Positions 3,837-25,100 of a stretch of 35,412 nt of DNA are shown here, piece by piece. The stretch covers positions 1 through 35,412 of the IMG/VR virus record IMGVR_UViG_3300013103_000032; one strand, written 5' to 3'. How positions within the stretch are numbered: the first letter of the stretch is position 1; every line of letters begins with the position of its first letter. A program made the translations under genes and the position numbers. The notes under the pieces were generated by a model. The model was not told the origin of the DNA. It was given only the letters and a program-made list of their open reading frames with translations, and made no database searches. The stretch comes from a virus.

Positions 3837-4547
3837 ATGAATACTAACGACGAAACCGTAGAGCTATATAAGTGTAACACATGTAATGAGTTACTCCCAG
3901 CGAGCTGCTACCCACTACGCAAAGAGAAGCCAAGAGGTAAGTGTAAAAAGTGTGTAGCACACATAGGTAAGCTGCGTAGAGCTGGTAAACAAGAAGAGAT
4001 AGTAGCACTATACGTAAAGAGGGAAATCCCGGACTACACCCTAGATAAAGAGTGTAAAGTTTGTGGTATAGTTAAACCTGCAGAGGAATACCCAAAGAAT
4101 GGACACAGACGTAAAAATACGTGTAAGAGCTGCGCTAGTATACGTACTAAAAAGTATAGAGATAATAAAGAAGCGTATGGTGATATAACAGAAGAGTTTA
4201 ACTGTAGGAGTTGTGACATACTAATAACACCAGGGGAAGTCTATATACAGAATAAACGAACTAATCAACCGTGTACACAATGTAAAGATTGCTACTTCGC
4301 AGATGTTAACAATAGAAAAGCTAGAAGACGTGTAAAAATAAAAGAGTCTAGGCAAGTAAATACTGTAGATGAAGAGGCTAGAATTAGAGAGATATATCGG
4401 CAGTGTAAAAAACTAAATAAATCAGGTACGACTAAGTATGAGGTAGATCATGTCAAACCACTTAGTAAGGGTGGAGCTCATCATCCAGACAATCTACAAA
4501 TACTAACTGCTAAAGAGAATAGGTCTAAGGGTAATAAATATGAATAA
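3837..4547 (+). CDS. HNH homing-type endonuclease with zinc-ribbon repeats
   Basis: A 236-aa protein that probably nicks or cuts double-stranded DNA as a free-standing homing endonuclease. The N-terminal half carries cysteine-pair modules (CNTC...CKKC, CKVC...CKSC, CRSC...CKDC) typical of zinc-binding modules. The C-terminal ~35 residues contain the HNH core: VDHVKPLSKGG, then HHPDNLQIL and the final basic ENRSKGNK. The VDH and N residues expected of the family are present. The gene sits immediately before the portal gene and overlaps its first 8 bases. That fits an intergenic homing endonuclease placed beside a conserved structural gene. Its target is not known. The tract of AAT repeats at the junction may be a scar of insertion. 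Confidence 0.85.
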   Translation: MNTNDETVELYKCNTCNELLPASCYPLRKEKPRGKCKKCVAHIGKLRRAGKQEEIVALYVKREIPDYTLDKECKVCGIVKPAEEYPKNGHRRKNTCKSCASIRTKKYRDNKEAYGDITEEFNCRSCDILITPGEVYIQNKRTNQPCTQCKDCYFADVNNRKARRRVKIKESRQVNTVDEEARIREIYRQCKKLNKSGTTKYEVDHVKPLSKGGAHHPDNLQILTAKENRSKGNKYE

Positions 4548-6720
4548 TAATAATAATAATAACAGTAATAATAGAGTCTATGGCTATCCAAAGTTAACAG
4601 CATGGCCGTTTGAGCCTTCTTTCAAGGAACTGAGTACAGACTTGACAGAAGCAGACAGTAGTAGACAGACACAGATAGACAAGATCGTTCAGTATCGGGA
4701 AGATATGGATGGTGGGAAGCCTATCAGTAACACTGTACGGAGCAAAGGGAAGTCAACACAGAGACCTCTTGTTATTCGTAAGCAAGCAGAATGGGCATAT
4801 CCAGTTATGGAAGAGCCTTTCTTAAGTACACAGGATATGTTCATCATTCAACCAAGAGGAAGAGATGATGAAGATGCAGCGAAGCAGAATGGAATGTTAC
4901 TGAACTGGTTCATGAGTACGAAGATCAATAAGAGTGCCTTTATAAGTGAGATGGTTCGAACTTTATATGACGAAGGAACTGTAATTGTTAAGGACGGATG
5001 GACTGTAGAAGAGGAAGAAGTAGAGGTAGAAGAGATTGTACCTGTATATGGAACACCTGAAGAGTCTTTAGTGGCTCTACAACAACAAGTTCAAGCTGGC
5101 CAAATTGACGAAGCGCAAGCTCAAGCAATGATGGAAATGGGTGAACCTGTTCAGATTGGCGAAGAGACTGTAATGAGAGTGGAAACTAGAACTGTAAGTA
5201 ATCATCCAACTCTAGAGGTTGTGGACAATACGAATATCATCGTTGATCCAACTTGTGATGGGGAGATAAGCAGAGCACAGTTCATTATACATGAGTATGA
5301 GACAGACTATGCAACTCTTAGAAGTCAGAAGTATGACCCTAAGACGAAGACAGGAATATATAAGAATCTTAGTAAAGTAAGATTCGAATCTGAGAAAGAT
5401 AATCCTTATGGAGATTATGACTCAACAGAGAAGACATCGTTCTTCTTTCAAGATAAGCCTAGAGCGAAAGTAAAGGCATATGAGTATTGGGGATATTGGG
5501 ATATTGATGGTAGAGGGGGATTAACTCCTATCGTTGCAACATGGATTGGCGAAGTGATGGTCAGACTAGAGAAGAATCCTTATAGTCATCAAGAACTTCC
5601 TTTCTCAGTAGCAAGATATATGCCAAGAAAGAAAGAATTCTGGGGTCAACCAGATGGAGAACTTCTTAAAGAGAATCAAGAGACAATAGGAATATACACA
5701 AGAGCAATGCACGACCAGACTATAACGAATGCGTTAGGTCAGAAATTAGTGGATGAGACTCTATTTAATAGTCCGAGTCAGTGGCAAGCATTCCAAAAAG
5801 GGAATGATGCAAGATTTAGACCAGGAGCGAACCCAGACACAATGATCTGGAAGAGTAAGATAGAACCTATAGACAAGTCTGCCTTTGATATGATTAACTT
5901 CCAGAGAGCGGATGCAGAGAGTATTATTGGAAAGAAAGCCTTCGGAGAAGGTATAAGTGGAGCCTCACTTGGCTCATCTGTGGGTGGAATCAGGTCAGCA
6001 ATGGATGCAACGAGTAAGAGAAATCTTGGAGTTCTTAGACGAATCAGTGATGAGTTACTACGGAACCTGGCGAGACATATGCTTGTGAATGCACAAGAGT
6101 TCTTAGACGAAGAGACTGTAGTTAGACTAAGTGATGGAGAATTTGTAGACATCCTTAAGCAAGACTTACAAATGGAGTTCGACCTTAGAGTGGACATAAA
6201 TACACCTGAGAAGGAACAAGAAGTAAGTGACAAGATCGCATTCATGTATCAGACAATGAGTAATGACCAACCTTCTGAGTTACAGAAGATAATGATGAAG
6301 AAATGGGCGACTGTAAATAAGATGCCTGACATCGTTAAGGACATAGACGAAATGCCTGAACCTGAACCATCTCCAGAAGAGATTAAGATGCAACAAATGC
6401 AAATGCAGATTATGGAACTTGACATAGAATTAAAGATGGCAGAATTAGCGAAAGTTGTAAAAGAGACAGAGAAGATAGACGCAAATATCTCAGAGACAAT
6501 CTTAAGAACTCAAGATAATCAAGACAAGAAAGCAAGTACGGCGAATGTACAGAATGCACAAGCAGAGAAGATCAGAAGTGAGCAAGATGAGCTGGATGCA
6601 CGCTTTATCGAGCATAGGAGCGGAAGAGTTCGAGAGAAGGAGCTTCAAGATAAGGCGATGGACTTCGAAGCACAGGCAGCAATAGCAGAGCAAACAAAAA
6701 CAAAAGAAGGAAATAAATAA
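4540..6720 (+). CDS. Portal protein
   Basis: A 726-aa protein that should form the dodecameric DNA gate at the capsid vertex. Evidence is its size and composition. A long mixed alpha/beta body includes WAYPVMEEPFLSTQDMFIIQPRGRDDE, and the family-typical core ELPFSVARYMPRKKEFWGQPDGELLKENQETIGIYTRAMHD, where podovirus portals of the N4/P22-like type have their clip and stem. The C-terminal ~110 residues are a Met/Gln/Glu-rich coiled coil, as in barrel-forming portals. It lies upstream of scaffold and major capsid genes, the usual head-gene order. The first 12 residues are MNNNNNNNSNNR, a low-complexity Asn tract. The start overlaps the end of the HNH gene, and the stop overlaps the next start (TAATG). 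Confidence 0.85.
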   Translation: MNNNNNNNSNNRVYGYPKLTAWPFEPSFKELSTDLTEADSSRQTQIDKIVQYREDMDGGKPISNTVRSKGKSTQRPLVIRKQAEWAYPVMEEPFLSTQDMFIIQPRGRDDEDAAKQNGMLLNWFMSTKINKSAFISEMVRTLYDEGTVIVKDGWTVEEEEVEVEEIVPVYGTPEESLVALQQQVQAGQIDEAQAQAMMEMGEPVQIGEETVMRVETRTVSNHPTLEVVDNTNIIVDPTCDGEISRAQFIIHEYETDYATLRSQKYDPKTKTGIYKNLSKVRFESEKDNPYGDYDSTEKTSFFFQDKPRAKVKAYEYWGYWDIDGRGGLTPIVATWIGEVMVRLEKNPYSHQELPFSVARYMPRKKEFWGQPDGELLKENQETIGIYTRAMHDQTITNALGQKLVDETLFNSPSQWQAFQKGNDARFRPGANPDTMIWKSKIEPIDKSAFDMINFQRADAESIIGKKAFGEGISGASLGSSVGGIRSAMDATSKRNLGVLRRISDELLRNLARHMLVNAQEFLDEETVVRLSDGEFVDILKQDLQMEFDLRVDINTPEKEQEVSDKIAFMYQTMSNDQPSELQKIMMKKWATVNKMPDIVKDIDEMPEPEPSPEEIKMQQMQMQIMELDIELKMAELAKVVKETEKIDANISETILRTQDNQDKKASTANVQNAQAEKIRSEQDELDARFIEHRSGRVREKELQDKAMDFEAQAAIAEQTKTKEGNK
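4543..4573 (+). repeat. (AAT)n microsatellite encoding poly-Asn at portal N-terminus
   Basis: Six AAT codons, then AAC AGT AAT AAT, directly follow the portal start codon and encode Asn7-Ser-Asn2. The tract begins inside the overlap with the HNH gene, whose TAA stop is read from the same repeat. Such a tract can vary by slippage in steps of one residue without disturbing the portal frame. Confidence 0.9.
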
Positions 6721-9111: not shown

Positions 9112-10515
9112 ATGAGTAATCAAACAAAAGTATTTAACGATGGCGAGTTAACGTCGAACACAATTGACAGACAGTTTACACCAGAGTTCGTATCAAAGGC
9201 AATCGTTGAGATGCCAGCAAGACAGACAGTATTTATGGATAGAGGGAATAGAGATAATCAACCTGAGAACCATGGAGATACTTTCACTAAGCAAGTTAAT
9301 TATCCTGTATTACATAAAGATAATATGATTGATGGTGGTATTGATGCAAATGGTGCAATCTTACTAGGTAATAACTGGTATGTATATCTTAAGTCAGGTG
9401 CTCTTGATAGTACATATACTGCAGATGAGTACATGGTAAATGGTGCAATGGATTTTGTAGCAGGTGTAGCAGCGGCTAAGGCAGCAGCAGTAGCCAGAGT
9501 AGCAGCAATTGCAGATTCAGCGACAATGAAGTCAGGTGCAGGTTCAATCAGAAATGGTCAGAATTCATTCTTAGTTGAAAAAGATGGTTTAACTCCAATT
9601 CCAGAAAATGGTGGGCAAATGAATGAGGTTAATGGATCTACAAAGTTAGTATCTGCTAAGGTTGATTTATTTGGTGCAAACTCTAAGTATACAGTTAAGT
9701 CTGTGAAGTTAGATTCAAGGGTTAAAGAGATTGGTAGAACAATCAAAGACTTAGGTAGATATAGAGCCGAAGTTCAAGAAGGTCAAGCTAGAGCATCTGT
9801 TATTTCAGCTTCTGAAGCAAATAGAATGTGTGCATCTGATACAGGTGTATGTCCAGCAGAACTTGATGGTAATGACGTATTAACATACGAAACATTTGAA
9901 GCTTGGGAACAAGATTTACAAAATGCAGAGATTCCATTACAAACTATGATCATCAGTGGTTCAACTAAGATTGACACCAAGACTGTAGACGGTTCTTACA
10001 TAGTGTACATTGCTAAGGAATTAGTGCCTACATTAAGAAAGATCAAAGATGCAAACGGTGATACAATTTGGATGTCTCCAAAAGAGTATTCATATGGTAT
10101 GGGAACAAAAGCTTTTGATGGGTTAGCTGGTGAAGTGGGTGCTTTCAAAGACTTACCTTTCAGATTTGTAGTTGTACAAGATATGCCTACTTATAAAGGT
10201 CAAGGTGAAGAAGTAGCAGGTACAGGTGATTCAGCTTCAGCTGGAACTCAAGCATTAGCTTACAAGACAAACGGTTATTACGATGTATTCCCATTAGTTG
10301 TAATTGGTGACGATGCTTATACAACATTATCATATGGTTGGGGAAATGTTTCTGCGAAGCATATCAAACCTCAGAATCAAATTGGTGTTGGTGACATCTA
10401 TGCAACAACAGGTGCAGTAATCACTCAGTGGTCTTACGGTTTCTTATGTTACAGACCTGAGAGGCTACGTCAATTAGCGTGCGTGGCAACTAAAACAGGT
10501 ACGATCGTAGCCTAG
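9112..10515 (+). CDS. Major capsid protein, N4-gp56 family
   Basis: A 467-aa protein that should form the HK97-fold capsid shell. The N-terminal helix region (FTPEFVSKAIVEMPARQTVFMDRGNRDNQPENHGDTFTKQV) and the C-terminal QWSYGFLCYRPERLRQLACV match the pattern I know for N4-gp56-type capsid proteins, which end with a strand containing 'GFL.yRPER'. An Ala-rich insertion lies near residues 115-140 (GVAAAKAAAVARVAAIADSA). Codon choice (GGT, ACA, GCA, TTA) differs visibly from the AGA/GGA-rich neighbours, as expected of a very highly expressed gene. It starts after an AAGGA site, and terminator-like hairpins follow the stop. Confidence 0.88.
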   Translation: MSNQTKVFNDGELTSNTIDRQFTPEFVSKAIVEMPARQTVFMDRGNRDNQPENHGDTFTKQVNYPVLHKDNMIDGGIDANGAILLGNNWYVYLKSGALDSTYTADEYMVNGAMDFVAGVAAAKAAAVARVAAIADSATMKSGAGSIRNGQNSFLVEKDGLTPIPENGGQMNEVNGSTKLVSAKVDLFGANSKYTVKSVKLDSRVKEIGRTIKDLGRYRAEVQEGQARASVISASEANRMCASDTGVCPAELDGNDVLTYETFEAWEQDLQNAEIPLQTMIISGSTKIDTKTVDGSYIVYIAKELVPTLRKIKDANGDTIWMSPKEYSYGMGTKAFDGLAGEVGAFKDLPFRFVVVQDMPTYKGQGEEVAGTGDSASAGTQALAYKTNGYYDVFPLVVIGDDAYTTLSYGWGNVSAKHIKPQNQIGVGDIYATTGAVITQWSYGFLCYRPERLRQLACVATKTGTIVA

Positions 10516-10618: not shown

Positions 10619-11899
10619 ATGGAATTAATACAAATAACAAATTCAAAGCCTGAGTCAGAAGGTTCTCTAAGAACCAAACGATTTGGGCTTTTTCTATGCC
10701 CAGCTTGTAATGAGCAGGTAGAGAGACCTCTTTCACATGGAAGAAGAAACAAAAGCTGTGGCAAACAAGAATGCCGTAAAGCAATGTTCACGCCGTCAGG
10801 AAAGAACTCAGGGCCTCGAAAAGCAAACCCTATAACAACTAACCCCCACTACTCTGCCTATAAGTACCATTACAGCACTGTCAAGGAAAAGACTTCTAAA
10901 TGGCCTACCCTACAACTATTCAAGGAAGATACATGGGAAACGTACATCATATTCAAGGATAATAACCCTGGTGTCCCTTTGACATACATCCTAGATGGGG
11001 AAGATCTAGAGTGGGTATCTGCAAAGAAATTAAGTAAACTTTACCTAATAGCCGCCGGTCCTTACGTAAAGATAGGAGTCTCTTCTAATATTCCTGACCG
11101 ACTTACTATCCTCCAGGTAGGGTCTCCAGTGGAACTTGAACTCCTATTCTCTGTTGAGGTTAGAGAAGCCTATGCATTAGAGCGTTACTTCCACGGAGAG
11201 TTCAGTTCTCAAAGTGTACGTGGTGAGTGGTTTACGCTAACAAGCGAAGATATTCTAGGGATAGAAAACTACTGTGCCAACTCTATCATAAACGGGCAGT
11301 GGGTTCCAGGAGAAGGTGTAGAATTATATCCATTACTGCCTAGGTCTCTTTCGAAGCCTATATCTAAGGAAGTTATTCCATCAGTACACACAACTACAGA
11401 AGAGTGTCCGGAGATCGTAAACGATAGGTCAGCACAGAAGGAAGCGACGACTAAACACTCTTTAACAGGCGCTAGAATATACTCTTATTGGCAGACTATG
11501 AAGAAAAGAGCGAAGAAGAATGGAAGTATTGTATGTAAAGAGTGGCAAGATGCTCAGACATTCTATGACGATATGTACGAAGGCATGTTAGCACAGGATG
11601 CCTTGCATAGTGCAGATAAGAAGCCAGGTAACAAGACATCTATGGTGTATACGGAGAGTACGGAACCTGTAGGACCTACAAACTGTAGATGGGGAACATA
11701 TATGGAAAGTGCGGCCGTATGGTCAAAACCTATTCAGAAGATATCTCTAACGACAGGAGAAGTTATTGCGAAGTATGTATCTGTAAAAGAAGCAGCCGAA
11801 GACACCTTGTCCGCAATAGGCTCAAAGATATCTGCAGTATGTAGAGGATCTCGTAAGACACACGCAGGGTATGGATGGAAGTACCTAAGCAACCCTTAA
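10619..11899 (+). CDS. GIY-YIG (T5orf172-type) homing endonuclease with NUMOD1-like tail
   Basis: A 426-aa protein that probably acts as a free-standing homing endonuclease. Residues ~25-55 hold a zinc-finger pattern (CPAC then CGKQEC). Residues ~140-205 match the T5orf172 branch of GIY-YIG nucleases: LYLIAAGPYVKIGVSSNIPDR, then ALERYFHGEF and GEWF, which gives the Tyr, Arg, Glu and His expected in the active site. Two copies of an AP2/HNH-associated type segment occur near residues 77-110 (HYSAYKYHYSTV) and 284-320 (IYSYWQTMKKRAKKNG...KEWQD). The last ~55 residues look like a NUMOD1 DNA-binding helix (SLTTGEVIAKYVSVKEAAED). It is inserted between the capsid gene and the next virion gene, with its own promoter-like element. 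Confidence 0.88.
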   Translation: MELIQITNSKPESEGSLRTKRFGLFLCPACNEQVERPLSHGRRNKSCGKQECRKAMFTPSGKNSGPRKANPITTNPHYSAYKYHYSTVKEKTSKWPTLQLFKEDTWETYIIFKDNNPGVPLTYILDGEDLEWVSAKKLSKLYLIAAGPYVKIGVSSNIPDRLTILQVGSPVELELLFSVEVREAYALERYFHGEFSSQSVRGEWFTLTSEDILGIENYCANSIINGQWVPGEGVELYPLLPRSLSKPISKEVIPSVHTTTEECPEIVNDRSAQKEATTKHSLTGARIYSYWQTMKKRAKKNGSIVCKEWQDAQTFYDDMYEGMLAQDALHSADKKPGNKTSMVYTESTEPVGPTNCRWGTYMESAAVWSKPIQKISLTTGEVIAKYVSVKEAAEDTLSAIGSKISAVCRGSRKTHAGYGWKYLSNP

Positions 11900-12013: not shown

Positions 12014-12601
12014 ATGATCAAATTAACAGGCGAAGAAACTAAAGCACAGCTAATCACAGTATGTGAAGAAAACGGTATCGAAATCGAAGGTAAACCAACA
12101 AATCAAGCAATCAGAGACTTAATCGAAGCACATGAAGACTTTGAACCAAATGCAGCAGACACATTAGAGAAATTGACAGATGTAGCAGTGGACGAAGTTC
12201 CAGGAGAAGTTGTAGACGAAGTAGGTGTAGCATTAGTAAAATCAACTAGTAAACTGGATGATATTCAGGAAGATAACAATAGAAGAGTTCTTATCTCAGT
12301 AACAGACCATGACAACTCTCAATCAATTGAGAATGACGTAGAAGAAAGACTATACAGTGCCTCTTGGGGTAATAGACTTATGGGTGTAGCTCATGAGAGT
12401 GTTCTTGTAAATGGATCAGCACAATACGCAAGTAGAGGGTTTATCAAACATATGAGAACTTTGACATATGGACAGTCTATAACAGACTCAAATGGGAAAG
12501 TAAAGACAAACCCTAAGAAGAGATTTACTATTAATGAACTAACTGGTTGGTCGCAAGAACAACTAGACGGCCTTAAGAAATCTCAAATGGGTAGAATGTA
12601 A
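12014..12601 (+). CDS. Virion-region protein with HeH/SAP-like N-terminus
   Basis: A 195-aa protein. The first ~40 residues (TGEETKAQLITVCEENGIEIEGKPTNQAIRDLIE) have the helix-extended loop-helix pattern of HeH/SAP/LEM-like modules, which are frequent in small phage structural proteins next to capsid genes. Residues 40-95 form an acidic linker, and the C-terminal ~100 residues are mixed. Upstream AAGGAAAAAT serves as ribosome site. It is the first gene after the capsid if the inserted endonuclease is ignored, so a capsid decoration or head-completion role is plausible. It ends at a strong terminator. Confidence 0.6.
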   Translation: MIKLTGEETKAQLITVCEENGIEIEGKPTNQAIRDLIEAHEDFEPNAADTLEKLTDVAVDEVPGEVVDEVGVALVKSTSKLDDIQEDNNRRVLISVTDHDNSQSIENDVEERLYSASWGNRLMGVAHESVLVNGSAQYASRGFIKHMRTLTYGQSITDSNGKVKTNPKKRFTINELTGWSQEQLDGLKKSQMGRM

Positions 12602-12610
12602 TCTATATCG

Positions 12611-12634
12611 AGCACACTTCGGTGTGTTCTTTTA
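12611..12634 (+). terminator. Intrinsic terminator with UUCG tetraloop
   Basis: AGCACAC and GTGTGTT pair (one G-U pair) around a TTCG tetraloop and are followed by CTTTTAT. It lies directly after the stop of the 195-aa gene. This is the clearest rho-independent terminator in the window. No promoter-like element was found between it and the next gene at 12,656, so read-through probably feeds the downstream genes. Confidence 0.85.
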
Positions 12635-12655
12635 TAAATTAACAAAGGAAGTAAT

Positions 12656-12907
12656 ATGGCAGATGTAGTATGGAGTAATATAATCGGAAATAAGACACTA
12701 GAGGATGGTGGATACGCTGGTGACTTACTAGAAGTTGCTATGCTTCATTTAGTTAAAGCAAAGGAAGATGGAACTCTGACAGAGGGACAAGTCGGTGAGA
12801 TATACGCTGTGACAATCTCAGCAGTATTTCAGCAAGCAATCGGATATGAAATGCAGAAAGAGAATCAAGAAGCTGTGAACGATCAAGTACGTAGAAGGAG
12901 TGTTTAA
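12656..12907 (+). CDS. Hypothetical small virion-block protein, 83 aa
   Basis: The start follows AAAGGAAGTAAT. The protein is helical, with a conserved-looking beginning (VVWSNIIGNKTLEDGGYAGDLLEVAMLHLVKAKEDG) and a long second helix (VGEIYAVTISAVFQQAIGYEMQKE). There are no Cys and no membrane segment. It is the first member of a chain of four genes, each linked by a 1-base TAATG overlap and ending in the radical SAM fusion gene. Family not recognised. Confidence 0.65.
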   Translation: MADVVWSNIIGNKTLEDGGYAGDLLEVAMLHLVKAKEDGTLTEGQVGEIYAVTISAVFQQAIGYEMQKENQEAVNDQVRRRSV

Positions 12908-13410
12908 TGGCATATACATCAGAGACCTACCTAGAAGAGTATAAGACAGTATTCGAGGACCTACTAGAACAAGCCACAATAAGTACAACGACAGGCAAAG
13001 ACTCTCTTATGGAGAAACTATTCTTAGAGATTGACGCAGCAGTAACTGATGAAGAAATAACAGTCAGAGACGCACTCTCGCTGAAAAAAGATGCCTATAT
13101 GCAAATGTTAACTGCTCTTACTGGTCAGAGCCAAAAGACTGCGATTACACTAGTGGATAAGAAGTATAAGTTCGGTGGGGAAATATCTCTACAGGATGAG
13201 CAAATAGCAGGTTCGGAAGCGGATACAGCTTATAAAGTAGCGAGTAAACTAGCACTAGAAGATCAGGTTACACATAATAGGTTAATTAAGGGATTGTCAT
13301 CAGTTGCAAATGTAAATGGTATGGCCCTTGGTGGTGGAGTAGCAGTGGAGTCTGAACAACTTGAGCAGTTCAATGACATCCTATACGAACTAGTACCAGA
13401 AATAGTGTAA
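12907..13410 (+). CDS. Hypothetical helical virion-block protein, 167 aa
   Basis: A helical, acidic protein (YLEEYKTVFEDLLEQATISTTTGKDSLMEKLFLEIDAAVTDEEI) whose start and stop both lie in TAATG overlaps with its neighbours. The middle has a repeated 'LTGQSQKTAITLVDKKYKFGGEISLQDEQIAGSEAD' stretch typical of self-assembling phage proteins. I recognise no family. Strict translational coupling implies production in step with the next two proteins. Confidence 0.6.
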   Translation: MAYTSETYLEEYKTVFEDLLEQATISTTTGKDSLMEKLFLEIDAAVTDEEITVRDALSLKKDAYMQMLTALTGQSQKTAITLVDKKYKFGGEISLQDEQIAGSEADTAYKVASKLALEDQVTHNRLIKGLSSVANVNGMALGGGVAVESEQLEQFNDILYELVPEIV

Positions 13411-13841
13411 TGCAGTTAGAATTAGACGACATAGGGTCTAGAGCCTCTCTAGCTCTAATCAAGGCCTCTAATGCCAGTGGATCAATAGACGAGGATAGGG
13501 TTAAATTCCAGAACCTTGCTCTAGAGAATGGAATAACATTTGACGCAAATGGAGATATCCAGGCTAATGAACTGTACGACAAGGCAGAGATCGCAATGGA
13601 AGTACTTGGAGTAAGTACTAACACAGTAAATCACAGACTTGTTCTTGACGAGTCTATACTCAACAATAAACTTAATGCAATAGCAAACTTATTTGGAGTT
13701 ACATTCAACGGAGATGGAACTATTAACACAGAATCATATAACGGACATACTCATGAATATGCAGATGCAACTATTAACGATACTGCCGACGGAAGTGGTA
13801 CACAAACTAATACAACAAGAGAGACTCAAGGAGTCAGCTAA
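13410..13841 (+). CDS. Hypothetical 143-aa protein just upstream of radical SAM fusion
   Basis: Begins at TAATG after the previous gene and ends at TAATG before the radical SAM gene. It contains two similar 'fold-like' halves: NLALENGITFDANGDI near residue 40 and NAIANLFGVTFNGDGTI near residue 95, an internal duplication. The C-terminal ~30 residues are Thr/Asn/Asp/Gly-rich and include GHTHEYAD, a His-x-His turn seen in tail-tip and tail-fibre proteins. Being coupled directly to the maturase gene, it is a possible partner or substrate of that enzyme. It has no Cys, so any modification would not be Cys-based. Confidence 0.6.
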   Translation: MQLELDDIGSRASLALIKASNASGSIDEDRVKFQNLALENGITFDANGDIQANELYDKAEIAMEVLGVSTNTVNHRLVLDESILNNKLNAIANLFGVTFNGDGTINTESYNGHTHEYADATINDTADGSGTQTNTTRETQGVS

Positions 13842-16195
13842 TGGACAATAGAATAAGCATGTACTTTGCCGTTAGTAAAGAGTGTAATCTCAGATGCTCA
13901 TACTGTTACCTTAGTGAGGACAACAAAAATGTAAAGACTAGCGACTCTTCTAATATAAAAGCAGTTAGAGAGTTTCTTGCTAAGTGTAGAGAAGAGGATA
14001 TAAGCATACATAATGTTGGGCTGCACGGGGCAGAGCCTACAATGCTGGCCCCAGAAAGTATAGCAGAGATAGCTGGTATGTTCATTGATGTTATATCTGG
14101 AAAAGTTACCCTACAATCAAATGGAGTAAATCTTACTAGAGACTATTTTGACAGAATGCTAAGCACAGAACCAAGGATTAGAGACTCTATGAATATAGGG
14201 TTCAGTCTTGACGGACACGAAGAGATACATAATAAATACAGGGGAAAGACTCACGATATAGTTGTATCAAATATGCTTATATCTAAGCAGCTTGGCTTTC
14301 ATACACAATTCCTTTCAGTTATAACTAATGATACTGTTCAACAGCTTGATAAGTTTACTGAGCAAGTGCAGTCTTTGGTTAATGCAGGAATATCGTATGA
14401 ATTTAAGATTGTTGAGCATGATCATTCTATGACTCTTGAGAATAGGATGGAGTTCAGCAAATGGACTAGAGATAATGAGTTTACTGCAGGATTACAACCG
14501 CTCAAGAAGAATATATGTATAAACATGGGTAATGATTGCTCATTTATGGAGTTTGATACTGACGGGTCTACTTATAGCTGTAATAAGGTATTTGATGATC
14601 AATTTTCATTCGCAAATTGGAAGACTGAAAAGCTACAGGATATTCTTGTCAAACGTAAAAGTGTGTATAAGAATGAGCCTATAAGCAGTGCTTGTGATAG
14701 TTGTGAATACAGTGAGTTATGTAACGGAGGATGCCCAATAAGTAGGGTTGACGGTCTTCCTGAAGACTGTGTGATACGTAAAGATATTTATAGGCACGGG
14801 TTCAAGCCTGAGTTGAATAATAAATCATTAATAGGTTCTACTGGATGTGGATGCGGCGGATGCGGAGGTTCTGGGGATAGTAGTGCTGACGGAGATGGAA
14901 GCAGCGGAACAGGCGGAAGTGCTGGAGGTGGCGGAGGTACAGACTCAAATGGTAACTCTGATACCGGTGGTCTAGGAGGAACTCCTGGGGGCGGTCTAGT
15001 AGGTGGTACTGGGCCTAACGCCGCTCCCTCGGCAACTGCTGCAGAAAACCAAGGATTTGAGGATACTGTAGGTAGAGGGATGGTGACGTCAAATGATGGT
15101 TGGGCCACACAAGAGGGCACAGTGTCTCATGCTCAGTCTATGTTCGGTTTCGGTTATGACACTCATACTAACATGGCCACTATGGCCGGATTCACCGCTG
15201 CTGCGGAGGCAGTTGCAGATATTGTAGAAGCCTTTGGTGGAACAATAGGTTCTGGCCCTGCTGACACAATGTCAGCAGAAACGGCCCAGGCAATAGGGTC
15301 TGTAGCTATGGCAGCAGCAGGCTATGCCACTGGAGTTAGAGGAATTCAGGCAGCAGCAGCAGTGGCAACAGCAGTAGTAGATACGGCAGTAGCTACTGGT
15401 CATATGGACGCGGAGGTAGCTGCACAGGCTAAGGCCGCTATTGCAGTTGTATCTATAGTCACCTCTTTACCTGGGCAGGTGGCAGGAATTAACGCAGCAA
15501 TGAATGCTCGTGGTATGCCTGCAGCAGCTAGAGCTATGATAGGAATGAAGGTTGCAGCAGGACTGTATGGATTATCATCTCTCGGACAGGCAGCAGCAGC
15601 GGCTGGACTGACAGGTGGTCTTACCAATGCGGGAGGTCTTTCATACGGTGGCACAATGGCATTCGGATTATTTGCAAATAGTCTTGGAATAAACCCCGCA
15701 GACAGTCTAGCTGTCCTAGGCGCATACCAAGCATTCACTTCTCTCAGTGCGAAGAGCATAGATGTAAACTCTGTACAGAATGATCCATTCGAATGGATGG
15801 CTGGTGGAGCGAAGTATGAAGCACAGTTTGCAGGTGGTATTGCATATCAACCTAACAAGGTGCGTGATTCAAAGAATATAGCGGCTCACTCATTTGGAAT
15901 AAGTAAGGAAGATAGGGTTCAACTATTCCAAGAAGATGGAAGATATACAAATCTAGAACCTATTGACACATCAATTAATACTACACAGTCATCAGTAGCT
16001 CCTAAACAGCTTATGCAAAAGAGACTATCGAGACTTATTGAAGACTATAACGAGAGTGTGGAGAGTGCCGAGTATGTAGACACTACTGCGAAGTCTGAGC
16101 GTACAGCAACTGCTGTTGGAAGCTGGTCTGGGCAGGGTGAGAGAGACAAGATGTCATCTGAGATCAAGGAACTGCTCGCTAAGTTAAGCAAGTAG
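13841..16195 (+). CDS. Radical SAM/SPASM maturase fused to Ala-rich virion-type domain
   Basis: A 784-aa two-part protein. Residues 1-~320 are a complete radical SAM/SPASM enzyme. The SAM-binding 4Fe-4S motif is C15-x3-C19-x2-C22 (CNLRCSYC). A GGEP-like GAEP lies at 63-66, with LQSNG near 91 and FSLDG near 121. The SPASM signature C226-x15-G-x4-C247, C285-x2-C288-x5-C294-x3-C298 and C310 supplies seven Cys for two auxiliary clusters. Known relatives use SAM radicals to modify peptides or protein side chains (anSME, PqqE and RiPP maturases). Residues 332-395 are a Gly-rich linker starting GCGCGGCGG (C336, C338, C341). Residues ~400-650 are Ala/Gly-rich hydrophobic helices like those of virion ejection proteins, and the rest is polar. 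It begins at a TAATG overlap and is one uninterrupted frame. The reaction and target are unknown. Confidence 0.9.
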   Translation: MDNRISMYFAVSKECNLRCSYCYLSEDNKNVKTSDSSNIKAVREFLAKCREEDISIHNVGLHGAEPTMLAPESIAEIAGMFIDVISGKVTLQSNGVNLTRDYFDRMLSTEPRIRDSMNIGFSLDGHEEIHNKYRGKTHDIVVSNMLISKQLGFHTQFLSVITNDTVQQLDKFTEQVQSLVNAGISYEFKIVEHDHSMTLENRMEFSKWTRDNEFTAGLQPLKKNICINMGNDCSFMEFDTDGSTYSCNKVFDDQFSFANWKTEKLQDILVKRKSVYKNEPISSACDSCEYSELCNGGCPISRVDGLPEDCVIRKDIYRHGFKPELNNKSLIGSTGCGCGGCGGSGDSSADGDGSSGTGGSAGGGGGTDSNGNSDTGGLGGTPGGGLVGGTGPNAAPSATAAENQGFEDTVGRGMVTSNDGWATQEGTVSHAQSMFGFGYDTHTNMATMAGFTAAAEAVADIVEAFGGTIGSGPADTMSAETAQAIGSVAMAAAGYATGVRGIQAAAAVATAVVDTAVATGHMDAEVAAQAKAAIAVVSIVTSLPGQVAGINAAMNARGMPAAARAMIGMKVAAGLYGLSSLGQAAAAAGLTGGLTNAGGLSYGGTMAFGLFANSLGINPADSLAVLGAYQAFTSLSAKSIDVNSVQNDPFEWMAGGAKYEAQFAGGIAYQPNKVRDSKNIAAHSFGISKEDRVQLFQEDGRYTNLEPIDTSINTTQSSVAPKQLMQKRLSRLIEDYNESVESAEYVDTTAKSERTATAVGSWSGQGERDKMSSEIKELLAKLSK

Positions 16196-16216
16196 TAAGT
16201 CTTAGTATGGTATAGT
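16195..16216 (+). promoter_or_regulatory. Promoter-like element GTAAGT-N10-TATAGT
   Basis: A weaker copy of the shared element: GTAAGT at 16,195-16,200 overlaps the last base of the fusion gene's TAG. A 10-base spacer ending in GG and TATAGT at 16,211-16,216 follow. It lies 31 bp before the 148-aa gene. Confidence 0.45.
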
Positions 16217-16247
16217 AGATAAAAATAAAAGTAAACAAGGAAATAAT

Positions 16248-16694
16248 ATGGCATGGTATGACGCAATAGGAGGCGGATTAAAGGCTGTTGGAAGCTGGGC
16301 AACTGATGATAAGGACGGATGGTTTGACAATAAAGGTATGTCTGGTGCATTCTTCGGAAAGGATGGGGGATTTGGAGGATCGGGAAGCTCTCTTGGAAAC
16401 GTTGGAAGCTGGTTGTCAAATAAAGACGGTAAAGGTATGTCAGAAGGCATGGGCAAGTTACTAGGAACTGGAATTGGTGCAGCAGCTAATATATACGGAG
16501 CTAGAAAGAACGACAGTCTGCAAAGAGACTTAATGAGTCGTTCTGACGCAGCAGACAAGTATGCGATGGGCAAGACTGCAAAACAAGAAGAGAACTTCAA
16601 AACTGCACTAGACAACTCAAAGCGTAGAGCACAGAAGCGAAAACTTGAAGGCACTAATACTGACTGGGCATTCGATGGAAGTGGTGAACGATAA
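16248..16694 (+). CDS. Small internal-virion-type protein, 148 aa
   Basis: The N-terminal half is Gly/Asp/Trp-rich (WYDAIGGGLKAVGSW, GAFFGKDGGFGGSGSS, GSWLSNKDGKG). It is followed by a hydrophobic GTGIGAAANIYGA stretch and a basic C-terminal helix (NSKRRAQKRKLEG). The Gly-rich amphipathic start and basic end resemble small podovirus internal virion proteins that accompany the larger ejection proteins; this is inference from composition and order. The start follows AAGGAAATAAT, and the stop overlaps the next start (TAATG). Confidence 0.6.
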   Translation: MAWYDAIGGGLKAVGSWATDDKDGWFDNKGMSGAFFGKDGGFGGSGSSLGNVGSWLSNKDGKGMSEGMGKLLGTGIGAAANIYGARKNDSLQRDLMSRSDAADKYAMGKTAKQEENFKTALDNSKRRAQKRKLEGTNTDWAFDGSGER

Positions 16695-19042
16695 TGGCGT
16701 TCTTTGAACCTAAAGGAGCTGAGAACTACGCAAGACTAGCGGCTCAAGCAGGCAATAGGTCTATTGACTACATAAGCCAATTAGGGGCAACTCTATCAAA
16801 AGGCATTACTAATCAAGCGAAGATTAATAGAGAGACTGCAAACAAAGACGCACTCTTAGCTCAGAAGAGTGGGTACACAGGTGACCCATCTGAAGAGTCT
16901 AAGAAGATAAGTGACAAAATTGGCATGCTCGCTAAGAGGGGACAAGAACAGTACCCAAATGCAAAGAACCCTTACGGACAGGAAATAGACGCTCTAACAA
17001 GTCAATTGCAAAGTATTGACACTCAAGGGCGTAAAGACTATGCAGGCGTTCTTGCAGGCGGAGATCAAGCTACTCAAGAGAAGATGATCGCCCTTGACAG
17101 ACAAGCAAAGATGGCCGGGAGAGCGGATCAACTATTCAACTGGAAAGTACAGGACAGGGACAAAGCACTTCTTAAAGAGAAAGGTCTCGAACATATAAGC
17201 AACCAGGACGTGAACACGGCATGGGGAGCTCTTGGAGACAAGATCAACGCAGGAATCTTAGCAGATGAGAAGCAGCAGAAAAAGGATGGGACATATATAG
17301 ACCCTACGAAGTATGCAAATGCAGACCTATATAACGAGGCCATAAAAGAGCGTGGAGATAACGACCAGTTTGACTCTCTAGCGAACGAGAAATTGAACAA
17401 TCTTGGACAGATGGAGATGAGTAAAGCAGATCGGGCAACTAGATCAGCAGAACTTACAGCCCAACTTGCGAAGTATGGTATAACAGGAAAAGAAGCTCGT
17501 ACGGAAGTGGAAGCCTTGATGGGAACAGGCGTGAAGTCTGGGAAGTTGACAGATGTTCAGAAGAAACAGTATGACATATCTCTAAAGAAGATTAAGAACC
17601 TTAGAGAAGATAAGGATCTTAAATCAGGAATAAAGACTAATAAAGCTGGTGGCAAGTATATGAGTACAAAAGGAGGCGACAAAGCTCTTTTAGATGTACA
17701 AACTAAACTATCTAAGGCAGGGTATGAAAGCTCTGTAATAGGTACGGACTACGGATATAACCAACTTCTTGACGCGGATATTCAATTCAAGGATAAAGAA
17801 GGTAAGGTACATACGACAACAACTAAACAGGCATTGCAAGCAGGGTGGATAACATCTGACGCAGTTATATCAATCGTGGATGCAAATGCAGAGTGGACAC
17901 TTGGAGATGACAAGGACGAAATAAGGGGAACAGCACTTAAACACCTTGCAAATAAGATTGATCCTAAGAAGTATAGTGGGAATAACCTTAAAGCAAAGTT
18001 GGCAAAGAACTCTGAATGGGAACAAGCAGAACTTTCTAAATTAAGTGCAAGTCTTGGAGGAACGAAGGAAGGTAGATCTCAGAATGAGGTTGTGCAAACT
18101 TTGTATGACGAGATTCGTAATGGTGGAAAGAAGAAAGAGACTCCTGGAAAGGATGTCTCTGGTAAAACAGGAGGGACAGACCCTTATGCAACTCCAAAAG
18201 AAGCAACTGCAGACGATCTTATGAAAAGTCTTACAGATAGAGCGAATGCTCCTATCGGACAGGGAATTGCAGCAGACAATTATGCAGCACTTACTCCTGA
18301 CGTAACTGAAGCAAGTGTGAATGCAGACCCTCTTGCAGCTCTGAAAGAGCAAGTGAAGCAGGAGGCACCTTCTAGTGCTCCCTTAAAAGTGGATGCAGAG
18401 ATAGCTGTAATGGATAAGTTAGGTATTGACCCGGATGACGTAAAGCCTATTGAAGTACTGAGGGCTATTGAGGAGTATTCAAAGACTAGTGCCCGTGGAC
18501 TGCTTCCTACTGACTTAGAGGCTGCGAGGAAGTACTACGAAGGACAGTACGGTCCTGGGCAGTTATTTCTTGACGCAGGTACTCAGGGGATTAAAGGTGT
18601 CTTATCGGCTACTGGTGAAGGACTCACAGCGTTAGCTGACGAAGCTGTTAGACTTCCTGTAAATGTAGCTAGAGGATTTACAGGTGGCTCTGTTCTTGAT
18701 AACCCTCTGCAGACCTCTGTAGGTGGACTTAAAGAGTCGTTAGCAACTAGTAAACAGGAAGCAGCACAGGAGCTGGGAAGATTATCAGGAGAGAATCCTG
18801 AGGAACTTGCAACAGCTATGGAGATAGCATCAATTGCCATCCCTGGCGGAGTTGTAGGCCTGGCTAAACTACTAAAACCTCTAGGTCTTAGGAAGTCTAG
18901 AGAGACTCTTTTGGAGCTTTCAAAGGTAATTCGTAATGGGAAGGTTGACCCTGCAGCCCTTCAGAGCTGGACAACTAAGGTAAGGAGAACATCAGGTACT
19001 AAACACTATCGACCTAAACCTAGTGGAAAGTACAGCTTCTAA
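16694..19042 (+). CDS. Large internal virion / ejection-type protein, 782 aa
   Basis: A long, helical, Lys/Glu/Gln-rich protein. Residues 1-~480 are charged helices with coiled-coil potential. Residues ~500-600 form a Pro/Ala-rich linker. Residues ~630-750 contain amphipathic or moderately hydrophobic segments (GIKGVLSATGEGLTALADEAVRLPV, AMEIASIAIPGGVVGLAKLLKPLG) that could interact with a membrane. The basic C-terminus is TKVRRTSGTKHYRPKPSGKYSF. Position between the small Gly-rich protein and the vRNAP-like gene matches the place of N4 internal/ejection proteins. No catalytic motif was seen. Start by TAATG coupling. Confidence 0.6.
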   Translation: MAFFEPKGAENYARLAAQAGNRSIDYISQLGATLSKGITNQAKINRETANKDALLAQKSGYTGDPSEESKKISDKIGMLAKRGQEQYPNAKNPYGQEIDALTSQLQSIDTQGRKDYAGVLAGGDQATQEKMIALDRQAKMAGRADQLFNWKVQDRDKALLKEKGLEHISNQDVNTAWGALGDKINAGILADEKQQKKDGTYIDPTKYANADLYNEAIKERGDNDQFDSLANEKLNNLGQMEMSKADRATRSAELTAQLAKYGITGKEARTEVEALMGTGVKSGKLTDVQKKQYDISLKKIKNLREDKDLKSGIKTNKAGGKYMSTKGGDKALLDVQTKLSKAGYESSVIGTDYGYNQLLDADIQFKDKEGKVHTTTTKQALQAGWITSDAVISIVDANAEWTLGDDKDEIRGTALKHLANKIDPKKYSGNNLKAKLAKNSEWEQAELSKLSASLGGTKEGRSQNEVVQTLYDEIRNGGKKKETPGKDVSGKTGGTDPYATPKEATADDLMKSLTDRANAPIGQGIAADNYAALTPDVTEASVNADPLAALKEQVKQEAPSSAPLKVDAEIAVMDKLGIDPDDVKPIEVLRAIEEYSKTSARGLLPTDLEAARKYYEGQYGPGQLFLDAGTQGIKGVLSATGEGLTALADEAVRLPVNVARGFTGGSVLDNPLQTSVGGLKESLATSKQEAAQELGRLSGENPEELATAMEIASIAIPGGVVGLAKLLKPLGLRKSRETLLELSKVIRNGKVDPAALQSWTTKVRRTSGTKHYRPKPSGKYSF

Positions 19043-19054
19043 ACTAAGCAAACC

Positions 19055-19076
19055 TTAACCATAACTTGGGTAATAT
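19055..19076 (+). promoter_or_regulatory. Promoter-like element TTAACC-N10-TAATAT
   Basis: TTAACC at 19,055-19,060, a 10-base spacer ending in GGG, and TAATAT at 19,071-19,076, in the 66-bp gap before the giant vRNAP-like gene. It is the most divergent member of the shared element. A TATAGTTTATAAACTATA inverted repeat lies just after it (19,073-19,090). Confidence 0.4.
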
Positions 19077-19108
19077 AGTTTATAAACTATATTTCCTAAG
19101 GAAGATGA

Positions 19109-22100
19109 ATGAATTACAAAGACTTATTGCGAGAGATTGACACAGGTGTTTCACAAAGCCAGGATCAAAGTGGCGGATACCAAATGTCTGGAGGGCTTCT
19201 AACTAAAGAGGACCGACTTGAACAAAGAACTAAAGAAAAACAAGCACGACTCGGTGCACAAGAAGCAAACACATTAACAGGTGCACAACTACAACAAGAA
19301 TTAAGTGACGCCGTAAATAAACAGGTGTATACAAGATCTGACGGATCTCAATTCCAATACGACTTTCAATCAACGAATGCAGATGGAACTTATAAAGACA
19401 CAAGCAAAGAAATTGAATACACAGGTGACGGAAGTAAGTACAAAACAAGAGACCTATATATAGATGACACCCTTCAAGGGAACATGAAACTAGGTCTTGC
19501 ACGAAGTGATCAAGAAGGGTATAAAGGAAGGTATGACAAGAATATTCATCCTTCTTGGGGTCTTGCAGACAATCAAGAACTAGCAGGATCAAGAGGAGTA
19601 ACTCCAGAAGACGGAGCACTTCTTAACGTAACACTGCCTTATGGAGCAGCAACTAAGTTTGAACAACTTGTGCATACAAACAAAGGCCAAATAGAGAACA
19701 GAGCAGCAGGACAGACATGGGACGAGATTGATGCCGTTAGGCCTCAATATGGGAGTGGTGTAAGTGAGTACACAACTCCAAACGCACCTATATGGAATAT
19801 AGACTCTCAACAATCAACAGAACCTTTACCAGCAGACACATACATGCCTGGGAGACTAGGACTAGACACAACAGACCCAGAAATAGCGAAGTACCTAGTG
19901 TCAAATGAAAGTAGAGCGGCTGACAGCAGTCGTGCAATGAATGTTGTTAAGGCCGCAGGCGTAATGGCGAGTACGTATGCCTTGAATGCAGCAGCATTTG
20001 TGGCAAATATAGGTAGCGAGGACATGGGTAATACTGTGTTTGGTACAGCCAAAGAACGTAGAGAGGGTGTCGAAGAATATTTCGGATATGACGCTAGTCA
20101 CAGTAAGGAACAGATGGACATGATCGAGAAGATCGCTCTTGAGAATATGTCACAGGAAATTGTGGAAGAAGAGAAGGGCTGGTTCGATAAGTATATAGAG
20201 GAGGAAGGGTCTGAAGGCATACAAGCCTTTAACAGACTTATATCAAATCTAGATGGCGATGAAGCTATGCAAATTATTCAGAAGTCTATTGAGACTCCTG
20301 AGACAGCAGTGGAATTCTATGGCGTTATTCTAGGAGAAGTCTTAGTAGGAAAAGGAGCAGGATTACTTACAAAAGCAGGGCGAGCACAGCGTAAGTTAGG
20401 TAAAATGCGTAAGGTAGATAACCTAGACCCTAAGAAGATTGAAGCCTTTGAAAAAGTACAAGGACTTACAAACTTCAACAAGGCAGCTCTAAAAGTAGCG
20501 CAGAACTCACCGTTAGTGGCGATAGCAACAGGTATGAGTGTAGAGCAAGAAGAAGAGTTCTTTGAGAAGTACGATCGAAGATGGACAAATACAGAAATGG
20601 CAGGATCAGTATTATTAAATACTGTGAACTATAAGCTAGAGAAGTTTACAGATGTACAACTGGCAAAAGGTCTACCAGTATTGCAGAGTGCAATCTCTAA
20701 AGGTATAGCACAGTTGCCTAAGAGTATGCAAGCAGCCGCAGCGAAGAGTATGATCTTGCAATTGACGGGAAGAGTAGCACAAGTAGCAGGTGGAGCTGTT
20801 GTGGTCGAGCCTATGCAAGAGGGTATTCAAGGCCTTATGGAGGAATTGAACAAGTATAACCTTATAGGAGAGGACTCTCAAGATCTTACGAAGGAAGAGC
20901 AGGGAGACATTGCGAAGAATGTAGCAACTGGAATGTTGGCAGCACCGGGGTCAGCAGTCGTTATGCAAGCACCTTCGGCAGCCAAGTATGGGCTTGGAGC
21001 AACTCTTGTAGCGGCAGGAAAGCAAGTAGACAAGAGTATAGCGAAGAATAAAGCGACTAAGGATGCAAAGATCGAGGCAGCAGACCTAAAGAGCAGAGAA
21101 GAAGGTCTACAAGACGTAGAACTTGGACAGGCCTTTGAAACTCCTACAGAAGAGACAATCGTAGAGAACGAAGATGGAACGAAGTCTAGTAAACAATTAT
21201 TCAAGAGTGCACAAGAAATCCAAAGCGAGAGTAAAGACAAGGCAGAGTATCAAGTAAAACTTGAGCAGAATAAGCAAGACGTAATAGGAAGTATATTCAA
21301 CCTTAATGAAGTGGACAAAGGGCAGTTATCTAGAGAAGGGGAAGCTCTTAAGAAGTCTGACTCTAAAGCCTTTGAAGCAAGAATGGAGCAAGTAGAGTCT
21401 TGGATGGGAGAGTACGCAAGTGCATTCACAGACAAGGACGGAGTTGTGAAAAGTGCAACTGTTCAGAGAGAGTTGGATACTGTAGAGAGCGCCATTCAGA
21501 GTGTTCGAGACCAGGACCTATTAGCAAGACAAGAAGCCTACGAGGAGATCGAGAGAGAAGACAGAACAAAGGCAGAGACAGACATCGTTAAAGAATTTGC
21601 AGAGAAGCAGGAACCTCTTAAGGACATGTCTGTAGAAGAAAGAACAGAGAGTATCTTTGTACAACTGCAAGCAGCAGAGGGTCTTGTAGATGACAAAGTA
21701 GAGGCGAAAGAGATCTCACCAGAAAGAATAAAAGACCTAAGACATATAGCGAAGAAATCTGCAGAGCATATGGAAACATTAGGAATGAGTGGATCAGCAA
21801 GAGATGTGTTCAGTCCAGATCCTTCTATTCTTAAGGCAAGAGCAAAGTCGGAGAAGAGTACAGACAAGAAGTCAACTAATGTGGATAAACTATCTGTAGC
21901 ATCCTCGTCTGTTAAGAAGTTTATGGACAACAGTATCGAAGGAGCAAAGGAACTTATATCTTCTGTGAATTATCTGTCTAACGACACTCAACTAGAGCAT
22001 AGAGTTATTAAGAAATTAACAGAGGGTGAAGATAGTAAGGTATTTAACAAGACAGCGAAAGCTATTAGTAAAGTATTAGCAAACCCTAGTGAGGAAATGG

Positions 22101-25100
22101 CACATAAACTTAACAGAGTCTTTAGTGAGGCAGGTATAGACCAAGGACAGGCATATGTTCTAGCAAGCACAATGTTGGGAACAATTAACTCAGCCGTTAA
22201 TGCAGATACAGGACAACGAAGAACTGTGGCCCTTGAGGACCCTGGCATGAAAAAGGAAGAATACCTAGCAAGTAAAACTAACGCAGTTATGCAGGGTGGT
22301 AAAGACTATTACACAAGTCAAGGCCTTACATCGAAGGGTAAACCTGCGGCAGTAGCTGCGGAGTACATGAAGGCAGGAGACTTAGGACTACATATCCTTA
22401 AAGAAGCTGGACTAGTGGAAGAGACAGACTCAATGATGTACACTCTTCTAAGTGATAGAGTAATAGCGGCTGGTGGGAATGGCATGAAGAGACTAGGTCA
22501 AGACGGTAGGGGACTTTCTTTTAAGGGGAAGAGAACAACAAAATCTACTGATGACTCAAGCGCAAGACTACTAATGGAAGATAAAGGCCTTAAGATAGTA
22601 GATACAGAGAGTATGTTCGATGTGAACAACCCTCAACGTAAGGAAGTATTCTCTTACTCAAGTGACATAGGAGATATATTCAGTAGATTTAATAGACTAT
22701 TACTACCTAGTAATGTAGAACTACCTAGAATATCTAATGACGCAAACATAGTGGAGATAGCCAGTGTTGTTGTAGACAATAGAGTAGTGCCTTATAGAGG
22801 AACAGTAGAACTTATTGAAGAGGCAAGTGATGTGCCTGCAGCAATAACAGGCGAAGCTGTTGAGATCTTAACAAAGATCAAGACTATAAGAGATACTAAG
22901 TTCAAAGGAAACCTAGACAAGATGCTTATGCAGGAAGAGCATGCATGGGTGAAAGGTTATTTAGGTGTTGAAGAGTATGACACGAAAGCAGCCTTACTTA
23001 GTGAGAATGAGCGAGGAGTAACCACTTCAAGAATGAGAGACCTAAACGGGATCTTAGACAACTTAGACACTCTTACAGGAGACCTGTTCTATGACTATCA
23101 AATAGATGTTAATCAGAGAATAACAGCCAGACAAGTAATCATGAATTACCAAGGCAATAGCAGTCTTGTTCGGCAGATAATGGGTTCAGCGAAAGAGTAC
23201 TCTATCAACGTGTATGAGAAAGATGGTCAGACAATTACACCTATTATGGACGAGACATTAAATGACCTTCTAGACAATCTAGGGATCGCTAAGACACCTG
23301 AAGACTATAAGGTTATGAAAGAACAAATCCTATCAGGGACTCTAGAAGGGGATAACCTTATAGGGAGATTGAGAAGAATTTACGCAGACTATAGTGGAGA
23401 AAAGTTACCTCAAGCCCTTCACTTCCTTATGGGACCTAAAGGAACTAATCCTGAGATCAAGAAATTCAAGGGACAAATCCCTAAGCTTTTAAAACTTATG
23501 AGTGCTCTTGATACCTTAGGTAAGGTAGAGAGTAATAAAGTGAATACACATTTCCTAGTAGAGAGTGATGCGTCAGCGTCAGGTGTATTCAATGTACTAT
23601 CAGATATTGTTGGACGTAACCCTGTAGAGGGTAAGAAGATGTTAAGACAATTAGGCGTTCAAGTGAAGGGAAGTGGGCCCATAACGGCGGACGAGCTAAC
23701 AGATGCCTATAATATGTTACGTATAGCAGCAGATGGCGTCTTAAGTAAGGCAACTAAGTCAATACAAGAAAACTCATCGGACGAGGGTGAACTTAATACC
23801 CTTTTGAAGGAACTAGATGAATTAGGGATAGATGCAAGAGATCTTGCAAAATACCCAGTTATGACTTGGTTCTATTCAGCAGGAGCGAGTAGTATTACAG
23901 ACGACCTTGTGAAGAAACTTACAGAGGCCGTAGTGAGAAAAGCAGTATTAGGAGATAGAAAAGCTCTTGACCACCTTGGACGTATTATCAAGAAAGACAA
24001 TATAGAGATCACAGATGTGGTAAAGATAGAGCCCGGGAGTCCTGAACACTTATTAATCATAAAAGAGTACAGTGAACTTGGAAATATGTATACATCGAGT
24101 CTTGATAAGGCCTTTCCTGGCGTGTCAGCTTATAAAGAAGACATGGCACGTATCTTTAAGGAGACTGTAGACCATGCGAATGTAAACGGAAAAGATTACT
24201 TCAGAGGAATTGTGAAATCAGCAACAAGAGCGTACCACGAATCAAACGAGGACAAGAATAAGTATGGACTAGAAGGGACAACGAGTCTATATAAGATGAA
24301 CCAACAACAATTGGATATGTCTAGTGAAGAATTAGTGAATGCGGATCTCTTAGACTCAAATGACGACGGCAAAGGCTTTAGAGCAACTAGTGTAGCCTTA
24401 CCTAACATCACATCAATAATGGCTCTTCTAGCACAGAACCGGGATTTCGGTCAGTTGAGTATAGGTATGCAGGCAATCCTGGACAAGATGGGTATGGACG
24501 TTGAGACATTCTTAATGGTGCACGATGCATATTACACAACAGCTGAACAAGCGTTGATAGCAGCAACGGCAATTCATGAAAGTATCCCTGAAATGGCTCG
24601 TAAAGGAGACTTCACAGAGATGCTAATCTGGGGTATGTCTAGAGCAATTCATGAAATGGAGCAAGATCTAAGTAACTTTAAAGAAGGTACGGAAGAGAGA
24701 AGATCGTTAGAGATAGGGATCAAGGACCTAGCAGAGGCAAGAAACAAGGAGAAAGCTCAGAACGACATCTATATAGCAGAGAAAGTAAAGATCCTTAAAG
24801 GGTCTACTACGAAGCTATTTGGAGTGAGAGACATAGAGAAGATTAAGACAGGAAGTGAGGCGAGTGTAGAGTCTACACAGGAGCAGGAAGCAGAGAAGCC
24901 TGTAAAGAAAGAAACACCAAAGGAAACAAAGAAGAAAGAACCTTCTAAAGAAGAGAGTGCATTGGCACAGTTCAAGAAGGACAAGAACGTAATGAACTTC
25001 CTAGCGAATATGGACTCTAGTATACAGGAAGACGTAGAAGCACAGGACATTACATTCCACTTTGGAGCAGAGGGAAGACCTGAGACACCCTACGAAGATA

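Follow-up and report, generated by a model that had tools for sequence, protein, structure and literature searches.

A radical SAM/SPASM enzyme fused in frame to a virion-type domain in the tail-plug slot of an N4-like phage

A single open reading frame in the virus DNA analysed here joins a radical SAM/SPASM enzyme to a C-terminal domain, and the analysis confirmed this to be a true in-frame fusion. It is known from one metagenomic virus contig (the window, 35,412 bases, a whole IMG/VR record) and lies between the tail-tube gene and the equivalents of gp52 and gp51, which is the gp53 slot of phage N4. With a confidence that falls somewhat short of even, we propose that an N4-like phage merged a radical SAM/SPASM maturase with the protein of the tail-plug slot, and that the maturase modifies a tail-gating protein. 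This bears on the open question of how short-tailed phages keep the tail closed and then release hydrophobic proteins. A modifying enzyme in the tail-gating slot predicts virion proteins with modifications that are invisible in sequence, and suggests that some viruses may finish their injection machinery chemically with enzymes of their own. The first-pass annotation knew of no described system of this kind and the open-access literature indeed yielded no radical SAM-virion protein fusion; such absence is weak evidence, but judged by the papers covered, no radical SAM enzyme attached to a structural protein of the virion would have been described before this one.

Gene order and the reading frame of the fusion

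Because the window carries portal, scaffold and capsid genes together with a C-terminal vRNAP part, its virus can be classed as an N4-like phage of the Schitoviridae. The order from portal to vRNAP is that of DL64 and N4 (phrog_1216, phrog_1357, phrog_2206), namely portal, scaffold, capsid, gp55, gp54, gp53, gp52, gp51 and gp50 (Table 1). In N4, gp54 is the tail tube, gp53 the tail plug, gp52 and gp51 have ejection roles and gp50 is the vRNAP (PMC12633501). The relatives used for comparison were collected by scanning with the portal and with the capsid protein, which brought in about 100 distinct contigs from related phages. Two of these, L036 and L008, carry the genes to which the gp54-related ORFs of the window are linked, and both genes themselves match N4 gp54 (E = 4e-4 for L036 10193, 4.8e-11 for L008 16933). 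The gp52-position protein begins with MAWYD, as in L008.

Table 1. Coordinates of the features discussed, in the window unless a relative (L number) is named; E-values as obtained
Feature	Position	Strand	Size or basis
N4-like portal	4540..6720	+	phrog_1216 6e-155; DL64 portal E 4e-119
Major capsid protein	9112..10515	+	phrog_1357 1.6e-45
gp55-position gene	12014..12601	+	homologues in L036, L008 and many relatives
gp54-like tail-tube protein, N-terminal part	12656..12907	+	45% identical to L036 10193
Second gp54-related ORF	12907..13410	+	E 7.6e-9 to L008 16933
Small virion-type protein with HTHEYADATINDTADGSG tail (HxH-tail)	13410..13841	+	TAATG-coupled to fusion
Shine-Dalgarno AAGGAG of fusion gene	13828..13833	+	direct sequence reading
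Fusion gene, radical SAM/SPASM + virion-type domain	13841..16195	+	784 aa
Radical SAM/SPASM enzyme, residues 1-320	13841..14800	+	PF04055 9e-12; TIGR04085 8.5e-10; anSME fold
Gly/Ser-rich linker, residues 321-405	14801..15055	+	translation; predicted disordered, pLDDT <40
CXCXXC in linker (C336, C338, C341)	14846..14863	+	translation; GCGCGGCGG
Ala-rich C-terminal domain, residues 406-784	15056..16192	+	L008 homologue; gene order of N4 gp53
gp52-position protein	16248..16694	+	148 aa; position and size only
gp51-position protein	16694..19042	+	782 aa; position only
Split vRNAP region, first part	19109..25702	+	2197 aa; E 2e-7 to L036 N-terminal part
vRNAP C-terminal part, separate ORF	25703..28585	+	960 aa; phrog_2206 4.6e-11; DL64 vRNAP 4.7e-7
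ACP + ketoacyl synthase + small ORF, directly 5' of tail-plug gene	L021:9812-11319
ACP + ketoacyl synthase + small ORF, directly 5' of tail-plug gene	L024:17460-18988
ACP + ketoacyl synthase + small ORF, directly 5' of tail-plug gene	L046:15853-17425
Slot with lysyl hydroxylase-type 2-oxoglutarate-oxygenase-like gene + GNAT-like gene	L032:19229-20693		350 aa (oxygenase-like), E 0.0083

Some further observations concern the wider block. The vRNAP region (19109-28585) consists of two ORFs, the first of which contains HExxH at residue 2036, as in the C1 domain of N4 and DL64; an HMM search did not detect the polymerase core in this 2197-aa ORF. In L036 and L121 the split precedes HExxH. On either side of the portal-capsid block stands a homing endonuclease gene (3837-4547, HNH/endonuclease VII-like; 10619-11899, T5orf172/NUMOD-type), and similar ones are located 3' of the capsid gene in many relatives. 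The window also encodes, on the minus strand (33728-34837), the small subunit of an oxygen-using class I ribonucleotide reductase beside the oxygen-sensitive radical SAM enzyme; the phage is therefore probably not confined to hosts that are strictly anaerobic, if the reductase is used as usual.

The fusion had been annotated as one uninterrupted 784-codon frame placed within the virion block by TAATG coupling, and both statements hold. Translation from the ATG to the stop meets no interruption, codon statistics favour one common frame on either side of the junction without a frame change, the start is preceded by a good Shine-Dalgarno sequence (AAGGAG-N7-ATG), and a TAATG overlap couples the ORF to the gene upstream. 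It might be argued that an assembly or sequencing error joined two adjacent genes, given that the record is single and metagenomic, that the genes are separate in L036, and that the halves differ in GC content (37% against 49%). We consider this very unlikely in view of the shared frame and of the junction itself, where a flexible, Gly-rich linker of about 85 residues connects the enzyme to the C-terminal domain and looks like what would be expected of a natural tether. Moreover, none of the internal start codons has a usable Shine-Dalgarno sequence; at the ATG of residue 414 an AGAGGG abuts directly, a spacing that is too short.

The enzyme half and its closest known systems

Residues 1-320 can be placed in the SPASM subfamily of the radical SAM superfamily. 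The first-pass annotation had described a full enzyme of this kind, and the profile searches it suggested give significant matches for both parts: 45.9 bits against a cut-off of 29.5 for Radical_SAM in Pfam (PF04055, E = 9e-12) and 38.9 bits against 27 for SPASM in NCBIfam (TIGR04085, E = 8.5e-10). A PHROGs match likewise marks this region as radical SAM. The motif for the catalytic [4Fe-4S] cluster, CX3CX2C, is present at C15/C19/C22, followed by GAEP at residues 63-66 and SLDG at 122-125. Seven SPASM cysteines extend from C226 to C310 (C226-X15-G-X4-C247 ... C285-X2-C288-X5-C294-X3-C298-X11-C310), and this spacing matches the canonical signature CX9-15GX4C ... CX2CX5CX3C ... C exactly. Structure prediction bore out the N-terminal part, with mostly high confidence over residues 1-190 and a TIM-barrel-type, anSME-like fold (Foldseek to anSMEcpe 4k37, E = 6.8e-12); the model of the C-terminal domain was poor.

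All ten catalytic and SPASM cysteines are kept, the motifs are intact and the enzyme is putatively active. CX3CX2C and the SPASM cysteines also recur in divergent phage homologues, and identity to relatives is approximately 25%. This retention of cysteines and motifs despite the low identity to relatives argues against the idea that the enzyme domain has become a structural head of the plug, with catalysis incidental or lost. Its N-terminal position would fit such a role, as would the globular core and the beta-feather that the N4 plug shows outside the tail tube (PMC12633501); nevertheless we rate this as quite improbable.

The family of the enzyme can be narrowed down to some extent by comparison. 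The best match in both structure and sequence is anSMEcpe (PDB 4k36-4k39; TIGR03942), which shares the radical SAM + SPASM fold, CX3CX2C and the seven SPASM cysteines. The window protein, however, reaches 86.8 bits where the equivalog cut-off for anaerobic sulfatase maturases is 349, has no recognised sulfatase nearby, and carries a virion-type domain. The RiPP maturases (YhhB, DynA, PapB, GrrM and others) have the same architecture and many of their models give weak matches, but here too the window enzyme stays below all cut-offs: the best NCBIfam score is 67.4 against 445 (YhhB), with the remainder far lower, and no named radical SAM/SPASM equivalog in NCBIfam reaches its cut-off. It further differs from these maturases in being joined to a large protein and in lacking a recognised precursor gene. 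No adjacent precursor peptide gene was recognised; the Cys-bearing linker and the small upstream gene are candidates. Known phage radical SAM proteins (phrog_1802; CP220, CAM-P21) are stand-alone genes, none of them fused to a virion protein; in CAM-P21 the gene adjoins tail genes, and the 11 stand-alone radical SAM genes of CP220 have been discussed as metabolic modules (PMC2853527).

The tail-plug slot and the origin of the fusion

The C-terminal domain comprises about 380 Ala-rich residues, predicted at low confidence to be all-helical. AlphaFold, run on two sequences, gave a pLDDT of 33 and the model was kept out of the fold searches; matches of the Ala-rich domain to KDPG aldolase in the PDB were rejected as composition-driven. 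The only match obtained for this half is the slot protein of L008 (18327-19835, E = 2.6e-6 over 109 aa). No match to gp53 (phrog_2220) was found in PHROGs, hhalign against gp53 gave a probability of 0.9% and thus no relation, and profile comparison with gp53, L036 and L132 yielded nothing. Annotated phages searched with the domain gave no match either. Scanning IMG/VR with the two C-domain homologues returned solely the contig of L008, and direct scans of that collection returned no relatives when queried with the fusion, with the gp51-position protein or with the capsid protein by itself.

Earlier this domain had been likened to virion ejection proteins, for which we found no sequence support; going by position, it corresponds best to the tail plug of N4. 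N4 gp53 (phrog_2220; PDB 9YFT) occupies the same operon position, between the tail tube and gp52/gp51/gp50, and both proteins show a hydrophobic stretch leading into a hydrophilic C-terminal tail. Unlike the window protein, gp53 has no enzyme domain, and sequence homology between the two is undetectable. The C-terminal half can be described as the protein in the tail-plug position; given the missing sequence relation to gp53 and the poor model of the domain, its identity as the plug is positional.

The position bears on whether the fusion could be cargo, by which a functional radical SAM enzyme anchored in the virion would be brought into the host along with the DNA, to act there early in infection. 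N4-like phages do carry and eject a large enzyme, the vRNAP, and the fusion belongs to the same operon. However, the proteins ejected by N4 are gp50-gp52, whereas gp53 is the plug of the tail tip, where receptor binding is proposed to displace it (PMC12633501). If the C-terminal half corresponds to this plug, delivery to the host becomes less likely. In addition, [4Fe-4S] clusters would need to survive outside cells and the L036 enzyme is a separate gene without a virion-type part. Overall, such a delivery role seems distinctly improbable.

The relatives point to how the fusion arose. In L036 a separate radical SAM gene of 316 aa occupies the same slot and overlaps by one base (TAGTG) with the next gene, which encodes a hydrophobic slot protein of 280 aa with zero cysteine. 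L008 has the C-terminal homologue without an enzyme in its slot, as was found on searching for C-terminal relatives that lack the enzyme; its radical SAM gene of 606 aa is located elsewhere, adjoining tail genes. Because L036 keeps the two-gene order unfused and L008 has the C-terminal homologue alone, the window gene can be regarded as a merger of two neighbouring genes. In the tree, a group with moderate support (SH-aLRT 86, long branches) is formed by the enzymes of the window, of L036 and L008, and of two Campylobacter-type phages, the last two being encoded next to tail genes. The L008 enzyme is 38% identical to the enzyme beside the tail genes of Campylobacter phage CAM-P21. A second fusion was found neither among 166 radical SAM ORFs nor in the whole relative records scanned with PF04055; G019 and G053 do have radical SAM genes, but outside the slot, and the match in G031 is sub-threshold. 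That the fusion is seen once, that the tree branches are long and that enzymes in the slot could serve other targets all count against our main explanation. As a separate observation, the radical SAM proteins of the schitovirus L008 (4924-6744, 606 aa) and of L086, a Mu-like Campylobacter phage (7980-9737, 585 aa), are 38% identical and have a common C-terminal extension, and both genes adjoin tail genes.

According to the merger explanation, a stand-alone radical SAM/SPASM gene would have joined with the next gene, encoding the gp53-slot protein. The enzyme would act on a tail-gating virion protein while assembly proceeds in the host cytoplasm, using SAM and its auxiliary Fe-S clusters, and the resulting modification might be a cross-link, a thioether, an epimerisation or an oxidation. 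The likeliest target would be its own helical C-terminal domain or the Cys-bearing linker, or else the product of the small coupled gene upstream. The three linker cysteines, a feature added to the earlier reading, are conspicuous in this respect: the block 12014-28585 has only three cysteines outside the fusion ORF, and the linker alone has three. Since cysteine is absent from the L036 plug-slot protein, a thioether or other Cys reaction on this protein cannot be common to both phages. Fusion would hold enzyme and substrate together, in a manner comparable to borosin precursors, non-viral proteins in which a methyltransferase and the substrate it acts on are fused. As in our proposal, enzyme and substrate there form one chain, although the enzyme is not a radical SAM protein.

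The small upstream product is an alternative substrate candidate, and leads to the reading of an action in trans, directed at a different target in the virion or host such as this HxH-tail protein or a tail fibre, with the fusion merely tying enzyme expression and stoichiometry to tail assembly. In L008, and also in Mu-like phages of Campylobacter, related enzymes have tail-fibre genes as their neighbours. Near the same slot, the HTHEYADATINDTADGSG tail is also present in L008 17852 (E = 2e-9), and L036 10498, situated close upstream, is akin to the HxH-tail genes of the window (E = 6e-4) and L008 (1e-5). Still, no substrate family accompanies the enzyme and the HxH gene of L008 is far from its enzyme, so that we regard action in trans as improbable, if deserving consideration.

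Other enzymes in the slot

Enzymes of other types are found between tail tube and plug in further relatives. In L021, L024 and L046 the slot holds a ketoacyl synthase, an acyl carrier protein (ACP) and a third small ORF. The synthase (PDB profile, E = 1.2e-10) keeps the nucleophile Cys and both His, and the ACP (3.3e-5) has the D-S motif; the plug of L021 is genuinely related to gp53 (phrog_2220, E = 2.2e-27). A GNAT-like slot gene (E = 0.0022) is present in L045, L029, L020 and possibly L004. As a control we compared, with Pfam, all slot proteins of 14 relatives with every other protein in the same blocks. Such enzyme families were matched by 7 of the 34 slot proteins and by none of the 91 others. 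Several of these matches are under curated cut-offs, homology links the three synthase loci, and the comparison was done after the pattern had been noticed. Outside the slot, Pfam matches were confined to homing endonucleases and chance matches. The slot thus appears to be a home for modification-type enzymes in schitoviruses, for which the control is support rather than proof. No such slot before the tail plug was found described in the open-access literature, though this absence is weak evidence.

A wider, rather unlikely reading is that podoviruses have a maturation step that has so far escaped notice: enzymes whose genes stand immediately 5' of plug or ejection genes would chemically modify the proteins that gate and carry DNA ejection. 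This step would then be radical SAM cross-linking or oxidation in the window phage, with the enzyme and its substrate in one fusion, and fatty-acyl transfer (ACP/ketoacyl synthase/GNAT-like) or hydroxylation in others. An ACP-ketoacyl synthase pair with a small third gene precedes virion-type genes in the unrelated podophage MW202545.1 as well (L153:7351-12334). There the pair is followed by two virion-type genes whose products are very rich in cysteine, and also by a third gene and one for a transglycosylase, and from the gene order we infer that these include ejection proteins. The MW202545.1 proteins include a cysteine-rich one of 639 aa and one of 412 aa with a CCSCCCSCCC run.
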